Source: Candidatus Heimdallarchaeota archaeon (GTDB taxonomy: Archaea > Asgardarchaeota > Heimdallarchaeia > Heimdallarchaeales > Kariarchaeaceae). Taken from it: a stretch of DNA of 41,579 bases. How positions within the stretch are numbered: the first letter of the stretch is position 1; every line of letters starts with the position of its first letter. The translations under genes were made by a program, and so were the position numbers. Below the pieces are notes generated by a model. That model saw only the letters and a list, made by a program, of their open reading frames with translations, searched no databases and was not told the origin of the DNA. Of the stretch, positions 3,672 through 31,350 are shown one piece after another. The stretch spans positions 1-41,579 of the forward strand of contig WAMJ01000259.1 of assembly GCA_015522385.1 (NCBI GenBank), in the 5' to 3' direction.

Positions 3672-4265
3672 CTACTCTCCCCAGTTCCCTCGGTGAATCA
3701 CCTCTGAAAGGGGTCTTCGAGGCACTTTTGGTTTGGATCTGTATGTATGATCTGCATAACCAATGCTGATAACACCGAGTGGTATAAATTCCTCGGGAAC
3801 AGAGAACCTCCTCCGTAATTCTGCAGGATCCTTAATTCCAGTGAATAAAGCTCCAAGCCCTTGATCAATGGCTGAAAGCAGAGCCAGAAGAACTGCCATC
3901 CCTCCGTCGATAAACCAGAATGGTGCTGGCCAAGTATCATCTTGGCTGTACCTCTGCTTGTCACTCATTCTGTACCTTTTCTCGTACCTCTTCTTGCTCA
4001 CGAACACCGCGAGGAGAAGGGGAGCTTTTTCTATTCCCTCCGATAGTGGGTACGACCTTCTCCGGTCTTCCTTGGAACCCCAGAGGCTGTACACCTTCTC
4101 CCGTTGCTTGCCCTGAATGACGAGGATCTCTGTTCCCTGTGAGAAGCCCGCGGACGGTCCTTTGAACATGTTTGCAAGGATCTGCTCAACAAGCACATCA
4201 GGTATCTTCCTATCGATGAAACGTCTCACCATCTGACGTCGGTTGACAACTTCTTGGAACTCCAC
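3672..4265 (-). CDS. Nitroreductase family protein
   Basis: FMN-dependent nitroreductase-fold enzyme of 197 residues. Seen: the N-terminal RRQMVRRFIDRKIP region (about 9-22), which is the FMN-phosphate-binding R-R-S-x-R-x-[FY] type motif, the helix LLALLSAIDQGLGALFTGI (about 126-144) typical of the dimer interface, and a C-terminal VISIGYADHTYRSKPKVPRRPLSEV, the usual GYP...R..L end of the family. Reduces an unknown substrate with NAD(P)H. First gene of a two-gene unit with sfsA. Confidence 0.85.
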   Translation of the reverse strand: MEFQEVVNRRQMVRRFIDRKIPDVLVEQILANMFKGPSAGFSQGTEILVIQGKQREKVYSLWGSKEDRRRSYPLSEGIEKAPLLLAVFVSKKRYEKRYRMSDKQRYSQDDTWPAPFWFIDGGMAVLLALLSAIDQGLGALFTGIKDPAELRRRFSVPEEFIPLGVISIGYADHTYRSKPKVPRRPLSEVIHRGNWGE

Positions 4266-4387: not shown

Positions 4388-5422
4388 ATGCTTGAGGAAA
4401 TCCGTATCGTCACAAGGACTGGCTTGCCATTAGCAAACTTCCCGTTGACAATCTCCTCAGGTAACCGCAAGATTATGGAGAAGGACAAGGATATGTCTCT
4501 CTTTGCCGGTTTTATCTCCGCTTCTCTCTCGATGTTTCAGGAACTTGAGAATGAGGCTATTGACGAGATCATTTACCATGATTACAAGATCGTGGTGCAT
4601 GGGACGGAGACCTTATTCTACCTCTGTGTCACAAGTAACAAGGTACCTACCCGGCTGACTCTCAGCTTCCTCCAGAGATTATCTGAACGTTTGGAGTACT
4701 TCATGGATTTCAACTCTGGACTGATCGAAATTAACAACGACACAATGGAGAAAGCAAGGATAATAATTGATAAGGTTCTGGAGGAGGAGTTCTGGTGGGC
4801 CAAGCCAAAATACACGCTGAAGAACAACCTCCTGTTGATCAGGGACGCATTCTCGGATCCGTCAGCTACTTTCTTCGTCAGCACTCTTCCCAAGGTCTTC
4901 ATTACAACTGGGATCTTCCTCTGGCTTGGTGTCTTCTTCTTCTCTCTGTTGGTTGGTACGACATTCACTGGTATCGGAACATACCCCGTCTGGACCCCTG
5001 CTCTCTCGGTGAACTTGGCCTCCATAGTCGCATTGTGGGTAGGTACTGGATCAGTCCTTAAGATATTGGGACGGGATTCCGTCAACTTCGATGGATACCT
5101 TATCATATCTGGTGTGTATTCGCTGTCGTTAATACCCATGATATTCTTCGGGAGCGCTCTTTACCAGTTCCAGATCCTCACTCCTCTGGAGAGTCTTGTC
5201 GAAGGTTCACCATTCCAGACGTTCTTGATCGTCTTGATCTTCTGGATACCCTACAACGTGAGTTTCTTCACCTACTTCATCCTCAATGGATTCAGCACTT
5301 CATTCGTCCAATTCATGAACCCCAAACGATACATCGTGGTCTACACATCTGTTATGTTGTTCGTACTTGCTGGGCTCTCGGTTCTGTTCAATGTCGCAAT
5401 TCCCTTCAATCCTGTCTCCTAA
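4388..5422 (+). CDS. Longin-like domain fused to a five-helix Yip1-like membrane domain
   Basis: 344 residues in two parts. Residues 1-110 look like a longin/roadblock-type domain as seen in Asgard archaea: strand LEEIRIVTRTGLPL (2-15), a first helix DMSLFAGFISASLSMFQEL (about 35-53), then three strands including IDEIIYHDYKIVVHG (58-72) and TLFYLCVTS (75-83), and a final amphipathic helix. After an acidic-helical linker (118-155) come five hydrophobic segments at about 170-192, 203-227, 236-258, 276-300 and 314-338. Five helices with the glycine-rich GTGSVLKILGRDSVNFDGYL turn (219-238) match the Yip1/YIPF topology. In eukaryotes longin domains and Yip1 proteins both serve Rab-dependent membrane traffic; a membrane adaptor for a small GTPase is the natural inference. 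Its stop overlaps the downstream convergent gene by 17 bases. The domain calls rest on pattern reading only. Confidence 0.65.
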   Translation: MLEEIRIVTRTGLPLANFPLTISSGNRKIMEKDKDMSLFAGFISASLSMFQELENEAIDEIIYHDYKIVVHGTETLFYLCVTSNKVPTRLTLSFLQRLSERLEYFMDFNSGLIEINNDTMEKARIIIDKVLEEEFWWAKPKYTLKNNLLLIRDAFSDPSATFFVSTLPKVFITTGIFLWLGVFFFSLLVGTTFTGIGTYPVWTPALSVNLASIVALWVGTGSVLKILGRDSVNFDGYLIISGVYSLSLIPMIFFGSALYQFQILTPLESLVEGSPFQTFLIVLIFWIPYNVSFFTYFILNGFSTSFVQFMNPKRYIVVYTSVMLFVLAGLSVLFNVAIPFNPVS

Positions 5423-7949
5423 TTTTTCCTGTATCCCCGTCGATGGTTATCTCCTCACCGTCCATCAGAATATTGGTGGCGTGTTTGACCTGAATGACCG
5501 CGGGTATTCCGTACTCACGCGCAACCACAGATCCGTGGGAGAGCAACCCTCCCTCCTCCATGACAATGCCACTTATCAGAGAGAAGATTGGTGTCCAACC
5601 AGGGTTGGTGTGGGGAACGACTGCGATCTCTCCCCTCTGGATCTCCGATATTTGGGATACACTTTTCAGCACTCTTACTTTACCGGTGACAGTCCCGTTT
5701 GAGCAACCCACACCAGAAAGGTCTCCATCACCTTCTACCTGACCAAAAGGAACCCCCGAGCCTATTGTGTTAGGCGGATGGTAATTTCTATATAGTTCCT
5801 TTGTGAGATTGTAATTCCGGATCGCTGTATCGACGACTGATCTGTCCCCCCCTTCAAAGTAATCCATGAGGTCCGTGTAGGTCAGGGAGTACATGTCCTT
5901 GTGACTGTCAACCAGACCCTCCTTTTCGAACCTCCTAAATCTTTCCTCGAGGACGAGGTGGAGGAGGAAGTATATCCGAGCTAGCATCTCGCGGGTTTCT
6001 TCCCTCCACCACGAATATTTCCTCACGAGCTCTACCTGCTTCCAGAAAGATGATTTCCCCATAATATTCAACCTCCCCAATCCTCGGTTAAGTTCTCTCC
6101 TTACCTTCTCCTCTTCCTCCAGCCTTACATCTCGCTGTTTTTCCTCGCTCCTCTGTTTTCCGTCCCCTTGAGTGAGGAGGTTCTTTATCAACTGTACTGG
6201 TGTCTGGATATCGTCATACCACCTTGGACAGGAGAGATCCTCGTCATTCTCTGCCATCCATGCGAATCGCATGATATACTCCGCTATAGGTTTGAGCTTT
6301 TCTGGGGTATTCTCTCCCATTAGATCAGAAGGGTTCACTCCCTCCAAATCCTTGGTGGTGATTCCTTTCAACCTGTCCATCAGCTTCTCTAATTCCATTA
6401 GTGGTGTTGCAGTCTTGACATCTTCCAAACCGGTGAACAACCTTGAGAATGAGATTTTTTCATCTGCCTTCTTATTCAGTTTATCGAGCATTACGTGAAA
6501 GTCGTCCTGTGACTGTGTCGCTAGGAACGAGGTATATTGGGCGATTCGATTACACTCAAGATCCAACTTGAAAAGCTCCGTTATGAAGTCCTCCAATTCA
6601 TTATCATTCAGGTTCTTCGCGTCGAGCGCCCGATCTAGAAGTGGGGGATATATTTTCTCGAAAGAATTTTTGTACTCAGAGGCTTTTTTCCAGAACGTCT
6701 TGTACTCCCTCTCCAAAGCCAAGAGAACAGGAAGTGCCCAGATTATCCTACCCAGTGACCAAGGAGTTGTCCTCCCGTCACCTTCGTAATTAACCGGAAT
6801 GCCCGTTGTTATGTCGAAAGAGCGTTCATTGAATCCTGGTACTTGGACGAGGAGGTCTTTCACCGCAGAGACCTTCCAATAAGTTCTTCCGAAAATCAAC
6901 CTGTGCCATTTCTCCCTCTCTACCGGTGGTCTACGCCAGATCTTGATATTGATTAGGTACTCGTGTAGAGTTGTGGTGAATGCTCCCCCTGTTAGAGAGA
7001 ATGAAAGTGGATTGTGGAATCCCGGGAACACCTCGACGAAGTTGGCATTCGTCCACTGACCAAAGTCCTTTGAAAACTGTATCGAGGTCAATGGGCGAGT
7101 CTGCAGGAGATATACCTTCCCCTTCTCTACCGCCCACTCAATATCCTGAGGGTAACCGTACTGTCTACCTACCCTCAATCCCAGATGCACAAGTTCATTC
7201 AAGGTACTCTCTGTAATCGAGTGTTTCTCCTTCTCATCGTCTGTGGTGGGGATCTTATGAGTCCCTCCCTCCTCTCGTATTTCGTACTTATGTGACTGGG
7301 GTGAAGTGGTCTTCTCTACCAATTCCATGGAACTCCAGTCATAGATCAACCTGTCTGGACTGACCTCTCCCGTCACAACTCCCTCACCCAGTCCCCAAAC
7401 GCTTTCAATTAGCATATGTGTGTCTATCCCCGTCAAGGGGTTGACAGTGAAGAGCACTCCGCTAACCTCGGGACTGATCTGTTCCTGAAGCACAACTGCC
7501 ATGCTCATCTTTCCCTCCAACTTATTATCCCGCATGTAGGTCTGTGTCTCCCTTGACCACATAGAACTCCAACATCGCTTGATGGCCTCAACCAGATCTT
7601 CGATACGGGATATATTGAGAAATGAGTCGTACTGTCCTGCAAACGATCTCTCTTCCATATCCTCCATAATACCCGAGGATCTGACTGCGATTGTAGTGTG
7701 CTCTTTGAGAAACTGATTCAGCTCTTCCAGTAAATCCTGCTCAAATTGGATATCTGATATTCTCTTTTTGACCTCTCGCAGATCTTCAATCTCTCCTATA
7801 ACTGGATCTACGTACTGATGGTAAACCCTTGCAGGTAAGCAGTGCGCCTCAGGAACAGGTAGTTCGTTCCTAATCAACTCTGAGAGATGGATTGCCTTCC
7901 CCCCTACCTCTGATAGTGGATGTTCCTTCCTCAGATCCACGATGTACAT
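5406..7949 (-). CDS. PEP-synthase-like phosphotransferase, rifampicin phosphotransferase architecture
   Basis: An 847-residue dikinase-type enzyme. Residues 1-300 form an ATP-grasp domain: AVRSSG (88-93), the E-D pair at 96-97, SFAGQYDSF (102-110), SGVLFTVNPLTG and the IEWAVEKGKVYLLQTRP strand. A long helical middle (about 310-740) shows no PEP-binding TIM barrel. The C-terminal swivelling domain has GLLSHGSVVAREYGIPAV with the phosphorylated His at 805, 42 residues from the end. ATP-grasp / helical binding domain / C-terminal His domain is the layout of rifampicin phosphotransferase (about 870 residues) and unlike PEP synthase, whose C-terminus is a barrel. It probably transfers the beta-phosphate of ATP to a small molecule; archaeal RNA polymerase is not rifampicin-sensitive, so the acceptor is probably something else. 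Third gene of a minus-strand operon, 24 bases after the aminotransferase. Confidence 0.8.
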   Translation of the reverse strand: MYIVDLRKEHPLSEVGGKAIHLSELIRNELPVPEAHCLPARVYHQYVDPVIGEIEDLREVKKRISDIQFEQDLLEELNQFLKEHTTIAVRSSGIMEDMEERSFAGQYDSFLNISRIEDLVEAIKRCWSSMWSRETQTYMRDNKLEGKMSMAVVLQEQISPEVSGVLFTVNPLTGIDTHMLIESVWGLGEGVVTGEVSPDRLIYDWSSMELVEKTTSPQSHKYEIREEGGTHKIPTTDDEKEKHSITESTLNELVHLGLRVGRQYGYPQDIEWAVEKGKVYLLQTRPLTSIQFSKDFGQWTNANFVEVFPGFHNPLSFSLTGGAFTTTLHEYLINIKIWRRPPVEREKWHRLIFGRTYWKVSAVKDLLVQVPGFNERSFDITTGIPVNYEGDGRTTPWSLGRIIWALPVLLALEREYKTFWKKASEYKNSFEKIYPPLLDRALDAKNLNDNELEDFITELFKLDLECNRIAQYTSFLATQSQDDFHVMLDKLNKKADEKISFSRLFTGLEDVKTATPLMELEKLMDRLKGITTKDLEGVNPSDLMGENTPEKLKPIAEYIMRFAWMAENDEDLSCPRWYDDIQTPVQLIKNLLTQGDGKQRSEEKQRDVRLEEEEKVRRELNRGLGRLNIMGKSSFWKQVELVRKYSWWREETREMLARIYFLLHLVLEERFRRFEKEGLVDSHKDMYSLTYTDLMDYFEGGDRSVVDTAIRNYNLTKELYRNYHPPNTIGSGVPFGQVEGDGDLSGVGCSNGTVTGKVRVLKSVSQISEIQRGEIAVVPHTNPGWTPIFSLISGIVMEEGGLLSHGSVVAREYGIPAVIQVKHATNILMDGEEITIDGDTGKIRRQD

Positions 7950-7973
7950 TATGTGGATGTCTCTGCGAATAAT

Positions 7974-9254
7974 TTAACTCTTACTCAGTTTGGATAGATC
8001 TCTCAGGGACTCGGTGAAGACGTCCAGAACAAACTCGACTTCCTCTTTGGAGATTATCAGCGGGGGCATCACGATCAATGTAGATGGCCGGTTGTTTGCA
8101 TAGAGCGCCAGGGCTCCTCTTTTCAGGCACAAAGACATGAATGCATGGCAGAGCTCAGTGGTCAAAAACTCTATTCCAATGAACAGTCCCCTCTGTCTGA
8201 TCTCGGTGATTAGTCCAGATGATCCCTCCTTGAGTAACGCCAGACCATCCGCAAACTGACGTCCCCTCTCATTCACCTGTGGGAGGAGATCCAAGGTGAC
8301 ATCCAACATCTTGCTCGCCACCTTGCACGCTAGGTCAGAGCCACCAGCAGTGGAAATATGTACAAACGGATTCTCATCGAAAAATGTCTGCAGGTGTGGT
8401 CTGAAGGATGTGACGCTAAGGGGATACATGCCGCCGCTCATCCCCTTCCCCATCACCATGATGTCAGGAATTACGTCCCATTCCTCTATAGCCCACATCC
8501 TACCTGTTCGTCCCAGACCTGCTTGGACCTCGTCAATGATGAAGACCACTCCTTTCTCGTCGCATATCCTCCGGATTTCCCTTACATACTTCCTGCTAGG
8601 AATAATCACTCCTGCGGTCGCTTGGATTGTTTCCATGATGAAAGCGGCGGTATTATTATCAATCTCCTTCTCTGCGGCTTCTATGTCCTCGATCGGAATC
8701 TGGACATAATCTTCGAAATCCCCAAAAGGTGCTTTGAAGACCGAATCCCCAGTTCCAATTGCGAAACCAGTGTGCCCGTGGTACCCACCTTCGAGAGATA
8801 CGATCTTCTTTCTCGTGGTGTAACCCCTGGCCAGCTTGATTGCCAAGTCGACCGCCTCTCCTCCACTCACCCCAAACACCGAGTACTGGATATCTCCCGG
8901 GAGGATACTCGCCAATTTCTCGGCAAGGTTTGCCCTGTGTTCAGAAATGAGCATGTGGTCACCCATGTCGATCCCCTCATCGAGTGCCTCGATGAGCGCA
9001 CTGCGAGTCTGAGGGGGACTATGTCCGAGGTTGAACACTCCCCCGCTGGATCGAAGGTTTATTACCTTTGTATCTGAATACTTATCCTGAATCCAGCAAC
9101 CTTCACTTTTACCCGGGATAAAGTCTATCCCCATAGCCTTGTACATCGCTACCTTTCCAGGTGAGACATACTCGGCGAATTTTCTAAATACCTCGGAATT
9201 GCTCACTTTACTTATTGGTATTTCCCGAGTATAAAGAGTTCTTTTGACCTTCAT
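7974..9254 (-). CDS. Class III PLP-dependent aminotransferase
   Basis: 426 residues with all class III landmarks: VFGVSGGEAVDLAIKLAR (127-144) binding PLP phosphate, SLEGGYHGHTGF (153-164), DEVQAGLGRTG (241-251) with Asp241 that pairs with the pyridine nitrogen, and the Schiff-base Lys270 in VMGKGMSGG. Related to 4-aminobutyrate, acetylornithine and glutamate-1-semialdehyde enzymes; it lacks features that would fix the substrate. It is clearly different from the ornithine aminotransferase at 38871. The operon position between a C69-type hydrolase (9 bases upstream) and a phosphotransferase suggests a dedicated amine or amino-acid pathway. Confidence 0.85.
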   Translation of the reverse strand: MKVKRTLYTREIPISKVSNSEVFRKFAEYVSPGKVAMYKAMGIDFIPGKSEGCWIQDKYSDTKVINLRSSGGVFNLGHSPPQTRSALIEALDEGIDMGDHMLISEHRANLAEKLASILPGDIQYSVFGVSGGEAVDLAIKLARGYTTRKKIVSLEGGYHGHTGFAIGTGDSVFKAPFGDFEDYVQIPIEDIEAAEKEIDNNTAAFIMETIQATAGVIIPSRKYVREIRRICDEKGVVFIIDEVQAGLGRTGRMWAIEEWDVIPDIMVMGKGMSGGMYPLSVTSFRPHLQTFFDENPFVHISTAGGSDLACKVASKMLDVTLDLLPQVNERGRQFADGLALLKEGSSGLITEIRQRGLFIGIEFLTTELCHAFMSLCLKRGALALYANNRPSTLIVMPPLIISKEEVEFVLDVFTESLRDLSKLSKS

Positions 9255-13752: not shown

Positions 13753-14652
13753 TTAACTCAGGATCTTGATTCTATTGATCAGGGAGAATTTCAGACCCAG
13801 TAAGCTCTCATTCAGTGTACGTGAGTCAGGTATGAGTTTCTTGATGTATTCAACAAGTGGTTGTAGCTCTGATATTGAGGGAAAAGCCCTGAAATACTCA
13901 TTCTTGATAAACAGGCAGAAGAGGTAGTAACCGTATTCTAGCCGAACCTCATCTGCGTCCGGGTTGTCGAGTCTGAAACTGAACACAAGGATGGAATATT
14001 CTGTGGAGTCCCCCGCTGGCATGAAGTAACAGGATTCATGGTAAGTATGCCCTTGACCTACCAGTAGTCCGAGGTGTAGACCAAGGTTGGATAGAAATTC
14101 AGAAGTGAGTTTCTCATATTTATTCTGTGAGTCTGGGAAGACCTGAAAGTCTTTGGCGACCAGTTCAAGTCCTGATCCTTTCAGTGCATACATAACAACG
14201 GGGTAATTGTCAGGATTGTACACCTGGCTGAAGTAGTCCGCTTGCCTTTTCTCCTCCTCGATCCTTGCGTACAGTCTGCTCAGGCTGTAGATCATGTCCG
14301 AACCGAAGTCTTCACTACGGCCGAAGACAACCTCGTCCACTCCACATGAAACCATCCTAAAGGCATTCCTGAAGTTGTCTATCACAATAAGGAGGATTTT
14401 CAATCTGGGGTAGTTTGACTTGAGGTACGGTCCGAGTGAATAGAAGTTGAATTCGTGGGCAACTTCCGAGCAGAGGATCAGTAGGTTCGGGTTCTCAGTC
14501 GCGAACCAGTCGTCAATTCGAGTTAGGGTCTCGGCGTGTTGAACAGTCAATTGCATACCATTGAGATTCTTGAACTCCTCGATGACCTTAACGGTCTGCC
14601 CCAGCAGCTCCTCTGCTCTGACGGAAATTAGAGCTTTAAGAGGTGCTTTCAC
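13753..14652 (-). CDS. Receiver-like domain plus possible longin-like domain protein
   Basis: 299 residues, no family firmly recognised. The first 125 residues have the strand-helix rhythm of a response-regulator receiver: LKALISVRAEELL, NLLILCSEV (53-61), RLKILLIVID, CGVDEVVFG, then a helix. The usual acidic pair and Lys are not conserved, so it is probably a pseudo-receiver. After a short helix, residues 147-270 begin VVMYALKGSGLELVAKDF with later strands CYFMPAGDS, YSILVFSFRL and YLFCLFIKN, a pattern like Asgard longin-type domains. No membrane segment or signal peptide. A regulatory or trafficking adaptor is conceivable. The start at 14652 is a good ATG; nothing adjacent is co-directional within 57 bases except the dehydrogenase downstream. 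Confidence 0.6.
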   Translation of the reverse strand: MKAPLKALISVRAEELLGQTVKVIEEFKNLNGMQLTVQHAETLTRIDDWFATENPNLLILCSEVAHEFNFYSLGPYLKSNYPRLKILLIVIDNFRNAFRMVSCGVDEVVFGRSEDFGSDMIYSLSRLYARIEEEKRQADYFSQVYNPDNYPVVMYALKGSGLELVAKDFQVFPDSQNKYEKLTSEFLSNLGLHLGLLVGQGHTYHESCYFMPAGDSTEYSILVFSFRLDNPDADEVRLEYGYYLFCLFIKNEYFRAFPSISELQPLVEYIKKLIPDSRTLNESLLGLKFSLINRIKILS

Positions 14653-15477: not shown

Positions 15478-15828
15478 GTGGAAGAACAACTGCACACCTT
15501 CAGGAAATTCAACCAGATGGTCATCGAACCTGAGGTCTCTGGACTGTCTCTGAAGGAGTTACGGGCGGAGATAAATTCTTTGATCAGGGGGATGACTCAG
15601 GAAGAACTTCGGAACCTCTTTATCACTCTGGCTACAGAGGACGAGATGGGACAGCTCTTCAACCTGATTACGGAGGGAATGAGTAAAGATTCGGTCACAC
15701 TACTTACCATGGAACTTCGGTTACTCGATCCACCCCTTCACAAGAAATACCGAAGAGGTCTTAGACATCTATTGGCCAAGAAGGAGAAAGAGGAACAGTG
15801 GATGAAGGTCACACAGCTCAAGGTCTAA
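15478..15828 (+). CDS. Small helical protein, unknown
   Basis: Not recognised. A 116-residue, charge-rich, helical protein with GTG start. Motifs of note are ELRAEINSLIRGMTQEELRNLF in the middle and a very basic end (KKYRRGLRHLLAKKEKEEQ, about 90-108). No Cys, no membrane segment. The basic tail may bind nucleic acid or membrane; there is no direct evidence. It converges with the next gene and shares the 4-base overlap CTAA at 15825-15828. Confidence 0.6.
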   Translation: MEEQLHTFRKFNQMVIEPEVSGLSLKELRAEINSLIRGMTQEELRNLFITLATEDEMGQLFNLITEGMSKDSVTLLTMELRLLDPPLHKKYRRGLRHLLAKKEKEEQWMKVTQLKV

Positions 15829-16190
15829 ATATCCTCTTCATCAATCACCACATGCTCTTGCCTTAGAATCAATATGTCATCGCTGGGGTCGGGGGTTGAC
15901 TTGTCATTGATGAAACCAATTACGCTCCCGTCAGTGATCAGTTTTAGCAACCCATTTGTCATTCGTTTGATATCCACTCCTGTCTCCTCATGGATCTTTT
16001 GGAATGTGATCTCGGCAGGCGGCTTGATACCCTTGAGGTAGGTTTTCAGAGACTGAATATCTTCCTCACTTGCGAGTGAACTCTGATCGACCCTGTCTGA
16101 TTTTATCTCGGAGATGATCTCTTTGGCTGCAGGCGCAAATTTATCGAGGATCTTACTAGCCACCTTATCCGGGGCATCATCTTGACTCAT
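15825..16190 (-). CDS. Winged-helix-like small protein, unknown
   Basis: Open from an ATG at 16250, but the internal ATG at 16190 (MSQDDAPDKVASK) is the likelier start because the first 20 residues look uncoded; this gives 121 residues. An N-terminal helical half is followed by AEITFQKIHEETGVDIKRMTNGLLKLITDGSVIGFI, which has the helix-turn-helix-strand rhythm of a winged helix like the one ending PCI domains. The end is acidic (VVIDEEDI). Function unknown; a protein-protein or nucleic-acid adaptor is possible. Confidence 0.5.
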   Translation of the reverse strand: MSQDDAPDKVASKILDKFAPAAKEIISEIKSDRVDQSSLASEEDIQSLKTYLKGIKPPAEITFQKIHEETGVDIKRMTNGLLKLITDGSVIGFINDKSTPDPSDDILILRQEHVVIDEEDI

Positions 16191-16323
16191 AATATGAGGT
16201 AGAGCGCGGTATGGCATAAACTTTCCGTGTGAAAAACGAATGTGTACCAAAAATCATGGTCAGGAAGAATATTCTTGAAATTTGTAGAACATATCCAACG
16301 AAAATACATTCGAATAAATAAAA

Positions 16324-27985: not shown

Positions 27986-28477
27986 CTAGGGTGTTAGTGG
28001 TAATATCTGATCGAAGATGAAGTCTATGTTCAGGGCGAATTTTGCGGAGGTCTCTATGTAGAGGTTGTCCACCTTGACGACGGAGTCTACCATTCTCCTG
28101 ATTTTGCTCTTCTGCTGTTCTGTGACGAGGTCCTGCTTGTTGGCGATGACGATGAGTTTTGGGTCTGTCTTAGTGTTGCACACAACTTCCTCCCACCATC
28201 TGCTGAAGCTGTGGATGGTCTCTGGTCGTGACAGGTCAAATACGAAGAGGATGTGTGTTGTCCCTGCGTAGTATCCCTCCCTGATCTTTCTGAACCCGGG
28301 TTGTCCTCCTACGTCCCATATCTGAGTTGTGACATTGTCTCTTCTGTGTACTGAGAATTCTACTCCGAGGGTCATATAATAATTCTCCCTGAACTGATCA
28401 CCTAGGTATCTTCTTCTGAGCGAGGTCTTCCCTACTCGTGGATCACCGACCAAGACGATCTTCTGCTGCACTTTCAT
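27986..28477 (-). CDS. Rab/Ras-like small GTPase
   Basis: 163 residues with a complete GTPase set: G1 GDPRVGKTS (11-19), G2 Thr36 in MTLGVEF, G3 DVGGQP (55-60) with Gln59 at the Ras Gln61 place, G4 NKQD (113-116) and G5 ETSAK (142-146). The Y-x-T-x-G-V-E-F effector region and WDVGGQPGFRKIREGYY resemble the eukaryotic Rab/Ras branch more than Arf or MglA. There is no C-terminal Cys or hypervariable tail, so prenylation is not expected; membrane contact would need a partner such as the longin-Yip1 protein at 4388. ATG start at 28477. No GEF or GAP gene is recognised next to it. Confidence 0.9.
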   Translation of the reverse strand: MKVQQKIVLVGDPRVGKTSLRRRYLGDQFRENYYMTLGVEFSVHRRDNVTTQIWDVGGQPGFRKIREGYYAGTTHILFVFDLSRPETIHSFSRWWEEVVCNTKTDPKLIVIANKQDLVTEQQKSKIRRMVDSVVKVDNLYIETSAKFALNIDFIFDQILPLTP

Positions 28478-28571: not shown

Positions 28572-29435
28572 GTGAATCGAATCCGAATACGGCTGTTGAA
28601 TGTCTCGCGACTTCGTCGAGGGGTCTCTCCGGTTATTGCCACTGTCTTTCTCATTGGGTTATTCGTGGCTGCAATTGGAGCTGTACTGACGATTATCTAC
28701 CCAAATCTTCAGACCATCGATGACCAGATTCAGATTAACAGTACGTCCAGTCACCTTCAGACGCTGGATGATGGATTGCGCGCGTTGCTGGTTCAGTCTT
28801 CAGGTACTGAGAAGCTGATCAAGCTCAGGGCAGAGAGCTCGACGATCATAGGTGACAACGTTTCGACGATGACGATCATCCCGTTCATGAATGGTACAGA
28901 TATGAGCAGCTTTGTGACGTCGATCACCTTTCCACGTATAGTTATTACGAATCCTTTGGCTTCTGATTTGTATAGTCCATTCGAACACCAGTACCTTCGT
29001 GGTACTAATGCTCAGGACTTTTTCAGTCTCAATGAGACGACGATAAGAGACACCCCGTGGTCGATTCTCAATGTCTCTCGTCCCTCGGACAAGCCCATCC
29101 TGAACAGTTCGCTCTCTTATCGGATGATAGTGACCAATGAATTTCAATCTGGGAACTCCATCGTCACGACACTCACCTATGTCAATTTCAATTTTGTAGG
29201 TGCTCTGTTCAAAACGATCGCTACATCCAGTATTAAATTCCAGTACAATGGTGTTATTGAGTCCCCGATCTTTACACGTCTCTACAACACGAATGAAGGT
29301 AACATCAAGCTGTCGCTCTCGACGAAGCTCGTCGGGAACAATGCATTTGTTGAGGTTCCGTTGCGGTTTGCAGGGAGTTCGTTTTACTGGACGCTCAATT
29401 TGAGGTACTATGACGTCAACGTATCCTTCGAATAA
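28572..29435 (+). CDS. Type IV pilin-like exported protein (1)
   Basis: 287 residues from a GTG start. A short basic region (RLRRG, residues 13-17) is followed by VSPVIATVFLIGLFVAAIGAVL, the archaeal type IV pilin/class III signal layout, in which a prepilin peptidase cuts after the R-R-G and the hydrophobic helix then assembles. The rest is a Ser/Thr/Asn-rich beta-like ectodomain with several N-x-S/T sites and no Cys. Near 63-85 a LQTLDDGLRALLVQSSGTEKL segment recalls other archaeal pilin-like surface proteins. Expected to be at or outside the cell membrane. It is followed by a larger protein with a similar N-terminus. No pilus ATPase or platform protein lies in the window. Confidence 0.7.
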   Translation: MNRIRIRLLNVSRLRRGVSPVIATVFLIGLFVAAIGAVLTIIYPNLQTIDDQIQINSTSSHLQTLDDGLRALLVQSSGTEKLIKLRAESSTIIGDNVSTMTIIPFMNGTDMSSFVTSITFPRIVITNPLASDLYSPFEHQYLRGTNAQDFFSLNETTIRDTPWSILNVSRPSDKPILNSSLSYRMIVTNEFQSGNSIVTTLTYVNFNFVGALFKTIATSSIKFQYNGVIESPIFTRLYNTNEGNIKLSLSTKLVGNNAFVEVPLRFAGSSFYWTLNLRYYDVNVSFE

Positions 29436-29529: not shown

Positions 29530-31350
29530 ATGAGAATCCGTCGCGCTATCAGTCCAGTTATATCAAGTATCCTAATGATTGCGTTAATCGTTGCCAGTAC
29601 ATCTGCGGTAATGGTTTTCCTGCAATACTCGGAGAACACTTCCTCTGTGACCTCCGAGGATGGTCCCTCACAGGGTCAAGATACAACTACTGCAAGTTCA
29701 CAGTCGGTGTCTTTTGAGGTTGCTAAGTTTGCCAAGAACCTCAATGACACTTACTACTCAAGTATTGAGCTCAGAGTTGATTATACTGGGCCAGATGCTT
29801 ATATCCTCGTCTATGACGTTGATATCTATGTCGATGGCATCAGACTCGACGACTATTCCGAATGGGTAATTGTCGACTCTGCTGCGGAATACACCACGTC
29901 CAATGGTGAATTCACAGGATATAAGCAACTGGCCAATACTTCAATAGTCTACAAGGTTAACCTTACCGATTCCAGCAATACACTGGCACGTCTTCCTATG
30001 AATACTGGTTTTACATATACCGTTGCATTAGGTGATATAAACGGTGAGATCGTCGAGGTGCTAACAGAGACACACATCTCAGTTAACATCTACAACCCGG
30101 TTGTTTACAACGTCTCTGTACTTCACTATGGTCAAGACATTGATGATCCCGATTCAATGCTTGCTACTATTATTAATATGGTCAAAGAGCTTAATGGATC
30201 CAATAAGTTGTACTACCGTCTGAACAATGAAACCAACGTGTATGATACAAGCGAGGATTTCAATGGTACTGCTATTGCAGAATGGTCGGATCTTATAATC
30301 AACGCGGAATGGGTAGTGAGTACTGACGCGGCTGCGGAGATGATGAAGATTTACCTCTCTGGCAAGCCTATGTTGATGATCGGTAGGGTCATAGAGGATC
30401 TTTATGATGATGATAATGTCGATAACTCTACGACTCAGAGTATTACTGGTGTCTGGTACACACCACACACAAAGGAGTACAAGGAGAAGAAATATTATCT
30501 CACTGGAAGTTACACTTGGGCAAAGACCAACGACTACCTTCTACAGTCACTTCAGGGCTCGATTACCCTTTACGATAATCAGGAATACCTCTGGTCGATC
30601 GGGAAATACGACGACTCAAACAACCAGACGACATCATATGGTATCACCGAGTATCAGATTTACAAGAGGGCAAAGCGATCTCATCCCCCTGAAATTAAAT
30701 GGGCTGGAAATGGATCACTTGTCGTCTCTAAGGCAGCTAACGTCACTGCTTCTAACATCACTCTTGGTGAGGTAATTACCGTGCCGGTTGATGATAGAAT
30801 ATTTGACCAAGCAGAGCGGGATATCCTTGTAAGGAATTCTATCCTTTCACTCCTAGTTGAGACCAATCGTCTAGATCCAATTGGAAAGCTCTCAATCACC
30901 GAGAACAAGTTGACCGATATCACAGTACCTACAAGGAAGAAAAACCCGACCTACTGGTCGTTGCAGGTGTCCTTCCAAGTTCTAGATGCAGATCTACCCA
31001 CAACTGGGCTCAGTCTAGTCTACACGCTTCCCGAGAAGTATAAATACACCAATCCCCACCCTGTGGTCTATATAAGTCGATCAATGGGTTCTACTGTTAG
31101 TCAGTCATTTTCGGTGGTGAGTAAGACTATCACACTTGATCTCTCTACCATCCTCTCTGGAAATCTCAAACAGGGTGAGATTGTCACTCTCCTCTTCACG
31201 GGATTCGGTGAGAAGGTAAGGAACAAGAATAAATGCTACGATTGGACTGCTACCTTAAATTATCAGCAGTTCGACCTTACCTCCCAAGTCTCGGAGCAGA
31301 CATCCCAGATGAAGATTCCTAGTAAGAAGTATCCGTCTTATCTCTGCTAA
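29530..31350 (+). CDS. Large type IV pilin-like exported protein (2)
   Basis: 606 residues, not a named family. The N-terminus (MRIRRAISPVISSILMIALI) is again of archaeal pilin type: basic R-R, then A-I-S-P-V-I and a hydrophobic helix to about 30. The ectodomain starts with a Ser/Thr-rich linker (32-60) and a beta-like domain (65-180). Residues 195-310 (VLHYGQDIDDPDSMLATIINMVKELN... WSDLIINAEWVVS... MIGRVIEDLYDDD) have alternating strand-helix character, like a class I glutamine amidotransferase-like or Rossmann-type fold, so the protein may carry a globular domain on a pilin-like stalk. A last beta domain (460-590) precedes a short KKYPSYLC tail with one Cys. Confidence 0.65.
   Translation: MRIRRAISPVISSILMIALIVASTSAVMVFLQYSENTSSVTSEDGPSQGQDTTTASSQSVSFEVAKFAKNLNDTYYSSIELRVDYTGPDAYILVYDVDIYVDGIRLDDYSEWVIVDSAAEYTTSNGEFTGYKQLANTSIVYKVNLTDSSNTLARLPMNTGFTYTVALGDINGEIVEVLTETHISVNIYNPVVYNVSVLHYGQDIDDPDSMLATIINMVKELNGSNKLYYRLNNETNVYDTSEDFNGTAIAEWSDLIINAEWVVSTDAAAEMMKIYLSGKPMLMIGRVIEDLYDDDNVDNSTTQSITGVWYTPHTKEYKEKKYYLTGSYTWAKTNDYLLQSLQGSITLYDNQEYLWSIGKYDDSNNQTTSYGITEYQIYKRAKRSHPPEIKWAGNGSLVVSKAANVTASNITLGEVITVPVDDRIFDQAERDILVRNSILSLLVETNRLDPIGKLSITENKLTDITVPTRKKNPTYWSLQVSFQVLDADLPTTGLSLVYTLPEKYKYTNPHPVVYISRSMGSTVSQSFSVVSKTITLDLSTILSGNLKQGEIVTLLFTGFGEKVRNKNKCYDWTATLNYQQFDLTSQVSEQTSQMKIPSKKYPSYLC

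Follow-up and report, generated by a model that had tools for sequence, protein, structure and literature searches.

Results

The gene at 4388..5422

This work deals with a gene in a 41,579-nucleotide stretch of DNA from an Asgard archaeon (Candidatus Heimdallarchaeota archaeon, contig WAMJ01000259.1), which is called the window throughout. The alanyl-tRNA synthetase of the window is closest, at 63-64%, to records of Heimdallarchaeota, Kariarchaeota and one further archaeon, which points to an Asgard archaeon of the Heimdall branch as the most likely source. The whole gene occupies positions 4388..5422 of the forward strand and, according to its open reading frame (ORF) and a structure prediction, encodes a 344-aa protein, P0001, in which a longin domain is joined to a five-helix membrane domain (labels beginning with P or C stand for proteins, L for genomic stretches and G for Asgard genomes). 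Searches of 5.8 billion proteins, in each of which ~7,800-8,000 candidates were scored, returned P0002, which is 100% identical to P0001, P0003 with 72% identity over 100% of the length and, by an alignment-based search, P0004 with 38% identity over 90%. Since the protein is conserved over its length in P0003 and P0004, the ORF is not a product of chance, and the coding region named in an earlier annotation made from the letters of the window alone (hereafter the original prediction) was confirmed by the ORF listing and these full-length homologues. NCBIfam held no match for P0001, and PADLOC gave no match. Both flanking genes, 3672-4265 and 5406-7949, lie on the opposite strand, the latter overlapping the 3' end of 4388-5422 by 17 bases; therefore, the gene stands alone.

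The N-terminal domain

Residues 1-138 (4388..4801, forward strand) were assigned to a longin domain by structure prediction, structural matches and profile comparison. The model runs through a strand (residues 2-9), a helix (30-54), three strands (60-63, 66-72 and 76-83) and two helices (88-106 and 117-134), with no helix before the first strand. This is the longin order of two strands, a helix, three strands and two helices, apart from the second strand, which is not resolved and is expected within residues 12-31, where the model is unreliable (predicted local distance difference test score, pLDDT, below 50). A prediction from three sequences only reached a pLDDT of 38.5 and was not used. Solved longins matched the P0001 model over most of the head domain, and Sec22b was the best structural match. 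The matches to solved structures cover residues 1-138; a Yip1 chain is not among them, which is uninformative since the longin part fills the list. Foldseek found nothing among viral structures at E <= 0.001 (the highest-ranked V-SNARE had E 0.23), and sequence searches against solved structures returned nothing useful, with the VAMP7 longin at E 0.77 in one of them.

Sequence profiles point in the same direction. Fuz_longin_1 was matched at E <= 1 by 57 of the 73 members of the family described below, weakly and with a best E-value of 1.8e-4 (the table holds no bit scores). Among the Pfam matches at E <= 1 longin-type families recur and Robl_LC7 is not listed. In a profile-profile comparison the P0001 group matched other Asgard longins at 99.0%, although these had been picked through their match to the family; one of them, L104, passes the Fuz_longin_1 cut-off independently.

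The SNARE heptad motif spans about 60 residues. Only ~30 residues (139-168) separate the longin from the first membrane helix in P0001, so that an R-SNARE of the Sec22 or VAMP7 type does not fit. Roadblock domains carry a helix before the first strand; in longins this helix is missing and there is an additional one at the C-terminus (PMC10933270). The P0001 model begins with a strand, and two helices follow the sheet. As the longin-type Pfam families also recur with Robl_LC7 unlisted, the head is better described as a longin than as a roadblock/LC7 domain. The structure prediction, which had been set beforehand as a test of the head, gave a longin fold and no non-longin fold, and model and profiles together support a longin domain. 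The N-terminal alpha/beta domain of the original prediction is therefore present, with its limit at about residue 138 instead of 110, and from its choice of longin or roadblock the longin was retained.

Linker, membrane helices and topology

The head is followed by a net positive linker (residues 139-168, 4802..4891), recognised by structure prediction, alignment and charge count, which has two short predicted helices (144-156 and 158-166) and in which D157-P158-S159 is aligned with RP[ST]R of the relatives. Structure prediction and hydropathy then place five membrane helices on the forward strand: helix 1 at residues 169-189 (4892..4954), helix 2 at 206-231 (5003..5080), helix 3, which is kinked, at 234-254 and 257-270 (5087..5197), helix 4 at 277-305 (5216..5302), with P288 and supported also by the alignment, and helix 5 at 312-337 (5321..5398). 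Hydropathy windows reach at least 1.6 at all five, in agreement with the five hydrophobic helices proposed originally. L167 and P288 are invariant in 22 of 22 rows of alignment A3, and P158 is kept in 90% or more.

Lysine plus arginine (KR) and aspartate plus glutamate (DE) were counted in 73 rows (7 five-helix and 66 seven-helix) with the loops as in the model. The linker is net positive, with means of 5.0 KR and 1.9 DE in the five-helix rows and 11.3 and 7.5 in the seven-helix rows, whose counted stretch also takes in the extra helices. Loop 4-5 is likewise net positive (1.6 KR vs 0.4 DE in five-helix rows and 2.7 vs 0.2 in seven-helix rows), whereas acidic residues prevail in loop 1-2 (0.1 vs 0.7 and 1.5 vs 4.8) and loop 3-4 (0.7 vs 1.6 and 1.2 vs 3.0). 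For loop 2-3 the seven-helix rows show a positive excess (3.6 vs 1.1) and the five-helix rows a balance (1.6 vs 1.6). Because of this charge pattern we infer that the longin head lies inside and the C-terminus outside, an orientation that fits the sequences.

An Asgard family with both domains

Searched with a query of three sequences, 46 of the 227 Asgard genomes had a match at E <= 1e-3, in most cases to the longin part alone. With the helical part alone as query, 36 of 222 Asgard genomes were found, with 37 places and one 49-codon scrap with stops. A longin lies in the same frame at 36 of the 37 places, and the remaining one (G027) is cut by the end of its contig. No place coincides with one of the Yip1 places listed, which are an incomplete set. 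The helical domain thus forms a separate family that occurs together with its longin. The co-occurrence of the two domains across Asgard genomes, put forward as a check of the fusion, was thus observed in 36 of 36 judgeable places.

Three groups can be distinguished. The P0001 group (P0001, P0003, P0004 and L075) has five helices, as does a second group (L090, L092, L093 and the partial L091), and the proteins of the larger third group measure about 425-475 aa and carry two additional helices that separate the longin from the five-helix part. The helical parts of the three groups match each other at 86.7-96.6% by profile comparison. A midpoint-rooted tree of 33 of the 73 rows of alignment A5, which includes 55 of the 67 new proteins P0005-P0071, splits them with support of 99/97 or better; the program warned of long branches. 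G002 carries a member of the P0001 type (C429) as well as a seven-helix one (C639), so that the two represent paralogous lines. An 18-member query found at least 69 proteins at E <= 1e-3 among the best 7,999 candidates scored. These have no precomputed Pfam domains, the organism, where named, is a Heimdall, Kari or Thor archaeon, and each product name shown reads 'hypothetical protein'. Outside Asgard archaea no match was seen in 5 genomes, and in two other archaeal phyla four weak, partial matches turned up among 489 genomes (2/246 and 2/243; E 3.7e-4 to 9.3e-4, one with stops), which we take as chance.

Comparison with Yip1

The original prediction had described the helices as Yip1-like with a glycine turn. 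Yip1 proteins have five membrane helices with the N-terminus inside. P0001 shares both features, its inside placement resting on the charges, and Yip1 (PF04893) is common in Asgard archaea, with matches in 161 of 222 genomes at E <= 0.01 and in 120 over the cut-off. Nevertheless, none of the 73 family members matches PF04893 at E <= 1, and a comparison with 16 helical pieces gave one match with E 2.4. The profile comparison with Asgard Yip1 groups proposed in that prediction yielded 0.2-0.5%, 0.1-1.4% and 0.1-2.2% in three rounds. For the 0.1-1.4% round 46 Asgard Yip1 frames were used (26 of 30 from L116-L145 and 20 of 20 from L188-L207); the four others were left out as no frame was located assuming 1,500 bases on each side. 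The test groups share members from one pair to another (H1-H4 are parts of B) and never within a pair. In the same setup control pairs of Yip1 groups scored 91.9-100% in eight of nine cases and 8.1% in one, and because of this last pair a remote Yip1 relation could be missed. For one Asgard Yip1 a solved relative was sought and none was found. Yip1 membership of the helical domain was therefore rejected on sequence and profile (Pfam, profile-profile comparison and genome search). As a whole, the original prediction stood in its ORF, its alpha/beta head and its five helices; the limit at residue 110 and the roadblock option did not, and the Yip1-like character with its glycine turn was not confirmed.

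Neighbouring genes of the relatives

By tblastn, the seven-helix gene is followed on its own strand, after about 58-154 bases, by the gene of an FtsX-type permease in 21 of 27 loci, and adenosylhomocysteinase precedes it in 19 of 27. These are 27 of the 30 loci L146-L175; L151, L155 and L165 were left out since the neighbouring gene had been picked as frame, and raw matches show the permease in L151 and L165 and none in L155, a short stretch. Scans confirmed the FtsX domain in the permease copies of G018 and G002 and adenosylhomocysteinase in the G018 copy. The permease is also present in G001 and G002, where adenosylhomocysteinase is absent, and the G001 permease is 33% identical to that of G002. 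The likeness of the G018 permease to LolCE is far below the cut-off (49.7 vs 362.45 bits). In G018, G027 and G002 the permease is followed by another large permease-like gene, of which the first 59-88 residues are also visible where 16 further loci end. Of its copies, that of G002 passes MacB_PCD, while that of G018 passes FtsX and misses MacB_PCD. No family member itself matches FtsX at E <= 1.

In the second five-helix group glycerol-1-phosphate dehydrogenase is encoded directly upstream in L178, L179 and L180 (NF002022, 477-494 bits vs 413). This neighbour of the five-helix longin gene is the archaeal lipid backbone enzyme; L091 has a similar frame upstream by resemblance, and DUF1844 and NAD-kinase-like genes lie further upstream (both scanned in L178 only).

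The GTPase at 27986-28477

The original prediction had pointed to a Rab-like GTPase without a prenylation site at 27986-28477 as a possible partner. The encoded protein is of Ras type (Pfam Ras, 8.3e-31) and indeed has no C-terminal cysteine, ending in ...ILPLTP. For Thor-Rab, the absence of the lipid-anchor cysteines of eukaryotic Rabs has been reported (PMC10933270). The gene lies 22.6 kb from the longin gene on the other strand. Six related genomes have 23-44 Ras-type matches per 2.9-4.4 Mb, about one per 85-150 kb, so about 0.3-0.5 such genes are expected within 22.6 kb on either side. With Ras-type genes this frequent, proximity was rejected as evidence of partnership.

Other proteins

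Two further proteins with longin-like N-termini were met in other Asgard genomes. L240:189-1508 (reverse strand, G180) encodes 440 aa in which a prenyltransferase-type toroid (PF00432, 6.2e-30) accompanies a longin-like N-terminus (Fuz_longin_1, E 0.022). L243:381-1400 (reverse strand, G059) encodes 340 aa with a longin-like N-terminus and four hydrophobic segments, by eye unlike the family studied here, and is perhaps a second longin-membrane design. Elsewhere in the window, 15825-16250 (reverse strand, 141 aa) has a weak PCI-domain match below the cut-off (E 0.033), 13753-14652 (reverse strand, 299 aa) has no Pfam match above the cut-off and by eye starts like a receiver domain, and the proteins of 28572-29435 and 29530-31350 (forward strand) have N-termini resembling archaeal type IV pilins by eye.

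Discussion

In our study a eukaryote-like longin domain was found joined to a membrane domain of a distinct Asgard family, and some Asgard archaea thus seem to fix a longin to the membrane. As the best explanation, to which we give a probability of roughly 45%, we propose a polytopic membrane protein with a cytosolic longin head that docks a partner and a five-helix domain without catalogued relatives. By analogy with longins elsewhere, the head would dock its partner, either a second longin or a small GTPase, at the cytosolic side of the cell membrane; the helices would hold the head there and may contact other membrane proteins, the likely membrane partner in the seven-helix branch being the FtsX-type permease encoded immediately downstream. 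A GTPase partner is plausible because the longin superfamily has direct fusions to GTPases in Asgard archaea, and a transport-related role is plausible for the seven-helix branch because of the permease link; for P0001 itself both are conjecture.

Several observations weigh against this proposal. Pfam Longin (PF13774) scored 17.3 bits against P0001 alone, below its cut-off of 26.2, and the mean pLDDT is 40-73 in the first six ten-residue blocks of the model. Loop 2-3 of P0001 is not net positive (1 KR, 2 DE). No partner was shown for P0001, the window neighbours of its gene being on the other strand, and the permease link was not seen for the P0001 group. The P0001 orthologue in G002 (L176), the one with context, has different neighbours from those in the window, including a same-strand gene 85 bases upstream (L176:4730-5596) which, judged by eye, differs from the neighbour in the window. 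The six of 27 loci missing the permease form two clades (G038, G039, G040 and G042, G004, G005). Moreover, in G016 (L182, outside the 27) there is no permease directly downstream; the next FtsX-type gene begins only after 3.1 kb and two intervening genes of the opposite strand.

The permease link also allows a more specific role, in which the family would serve an ABC permease of the FtsX/MacB/LolCE type as accessory subunit or regulator: the longin head would sense or recruit a cytosolic partner, and the helices would relay this to the permease. The conservation of the downstream gene up to the distant G001 and G002 lineages, its FtsX domains in G018 and G002 and the second permease-like gene of G018, G027, G002 and the edges of 16 loci speak for it, as does the LolCE likeness of the G018 copy, which is far below the cut-off. 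We regard this role as possible and still rather unlikely, as the permease is absent or displaced in the loci just named, the window gene and its G002 orthologue lie outside such clusters and the three second-group loci sit behind glycerol-1-phosphate dehydrogenase instead. It is similarly unlikely that the helices are a plain anchor, with the protein doing no more than enriching a longin dimer locally at the membrane. Asgard roadblock, longin and TRAPPC3 proteins were reported as dimers, the longin as a model only (PMC10933270), and the number of helices varies by branch (5 or 7) as that of an anchor might; the conserved L167, P288 and P158 together with the permease link suggest more.

The original proposal, a longin fused to a Yip1 domain and serving a Rab-like GTPase as its membrane receptor, has become very improbable. 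Five helices, a head inside, the abundance of Yip1 in these archaea and a profile method that can miss Yip1 relatives are in its favour, and they face the negative Pfam, profile and genome-search results. Even harder to maintain is a superficial longin resemblance of a head that is another alpha/beta domain (roadblock, profilin or ligand-binding). Such a head would agree with the sub-threshold Longin match of P0001 alone and the second strand that is not reliably modelled, and is at odds with the structural and profile matches. Going beyond the membrane-fixed longin that we prefer, the family might, in Heimdall-type archaea, couple a cytosolic GTPase or longin module to envelope permeases, as an arrangement preceding or paralleling the eukaryotic Sec22-type membrane longins; we offer this as a speculation and consider it unlikely.

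Asgard archaea are rich in longin and GTPase genes, and the route of these to the membrane is open. A membrane-fixed longin, present in 36 of 222 Asgard genomes and permease-linked in one branch, is a concrete protein for testing where Asgard longins act and what they bind. With FtsX/MacB/LolCE-type ABC permeases the family shares the locus in its seven-helix branch, although the two are separate proteins. With Yip1/YIPF (PF04893) it shares five helices and the presence in the same archaea, and no sequence or profile relation to them was found for its helical domain. The Sec22 family resembles it in outline, with an N-terminal longin followed by membrane helices, and Sec22a and Sec22c have several of these. 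In mammals both possess the longin and lack the SNARE part (PMC2779197). The family described here differs from the Sec22 family in lacking a SNARE motif and any evidence of vesicle traffic.

Asgard longins have been described as stand-alone proteins or fused to GTPases or TRAPPC3, and 26 GTPase sequences combined with roadblock or longin domains were reported for one genome, together with a longin-TRAPPC3 protein (PMC10933270). Fusions to Vps28-C and the adaptin appendage are also known, and these fusions were suggested as possible activators of small GTPases (PMC11188069). The word transmembrane is absent from the main text of PMC10933270, and no longin-membrane fusion was found in the accessible part of PMC11188069. 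Nor was a longin joined to a polytopic membrane domain found in the accessible literature, including parts of PMC10933270, PMC7997004, PMC11188069 and PMC11291895, which is weak evidence of absence as subscription journals were mostly outside the search. The proteins described here share with these Asgard longins the superfamily by profile, the Asgard origin and the modular fusions, and differ in joining the longin to a multi-helix membrane domain. Within this scope the longin on a polytopic membrane domain seems new; Asgard longins and their GTPase, TRAPPC3 and Vps28-C/adaptin appendage fusions were already known.
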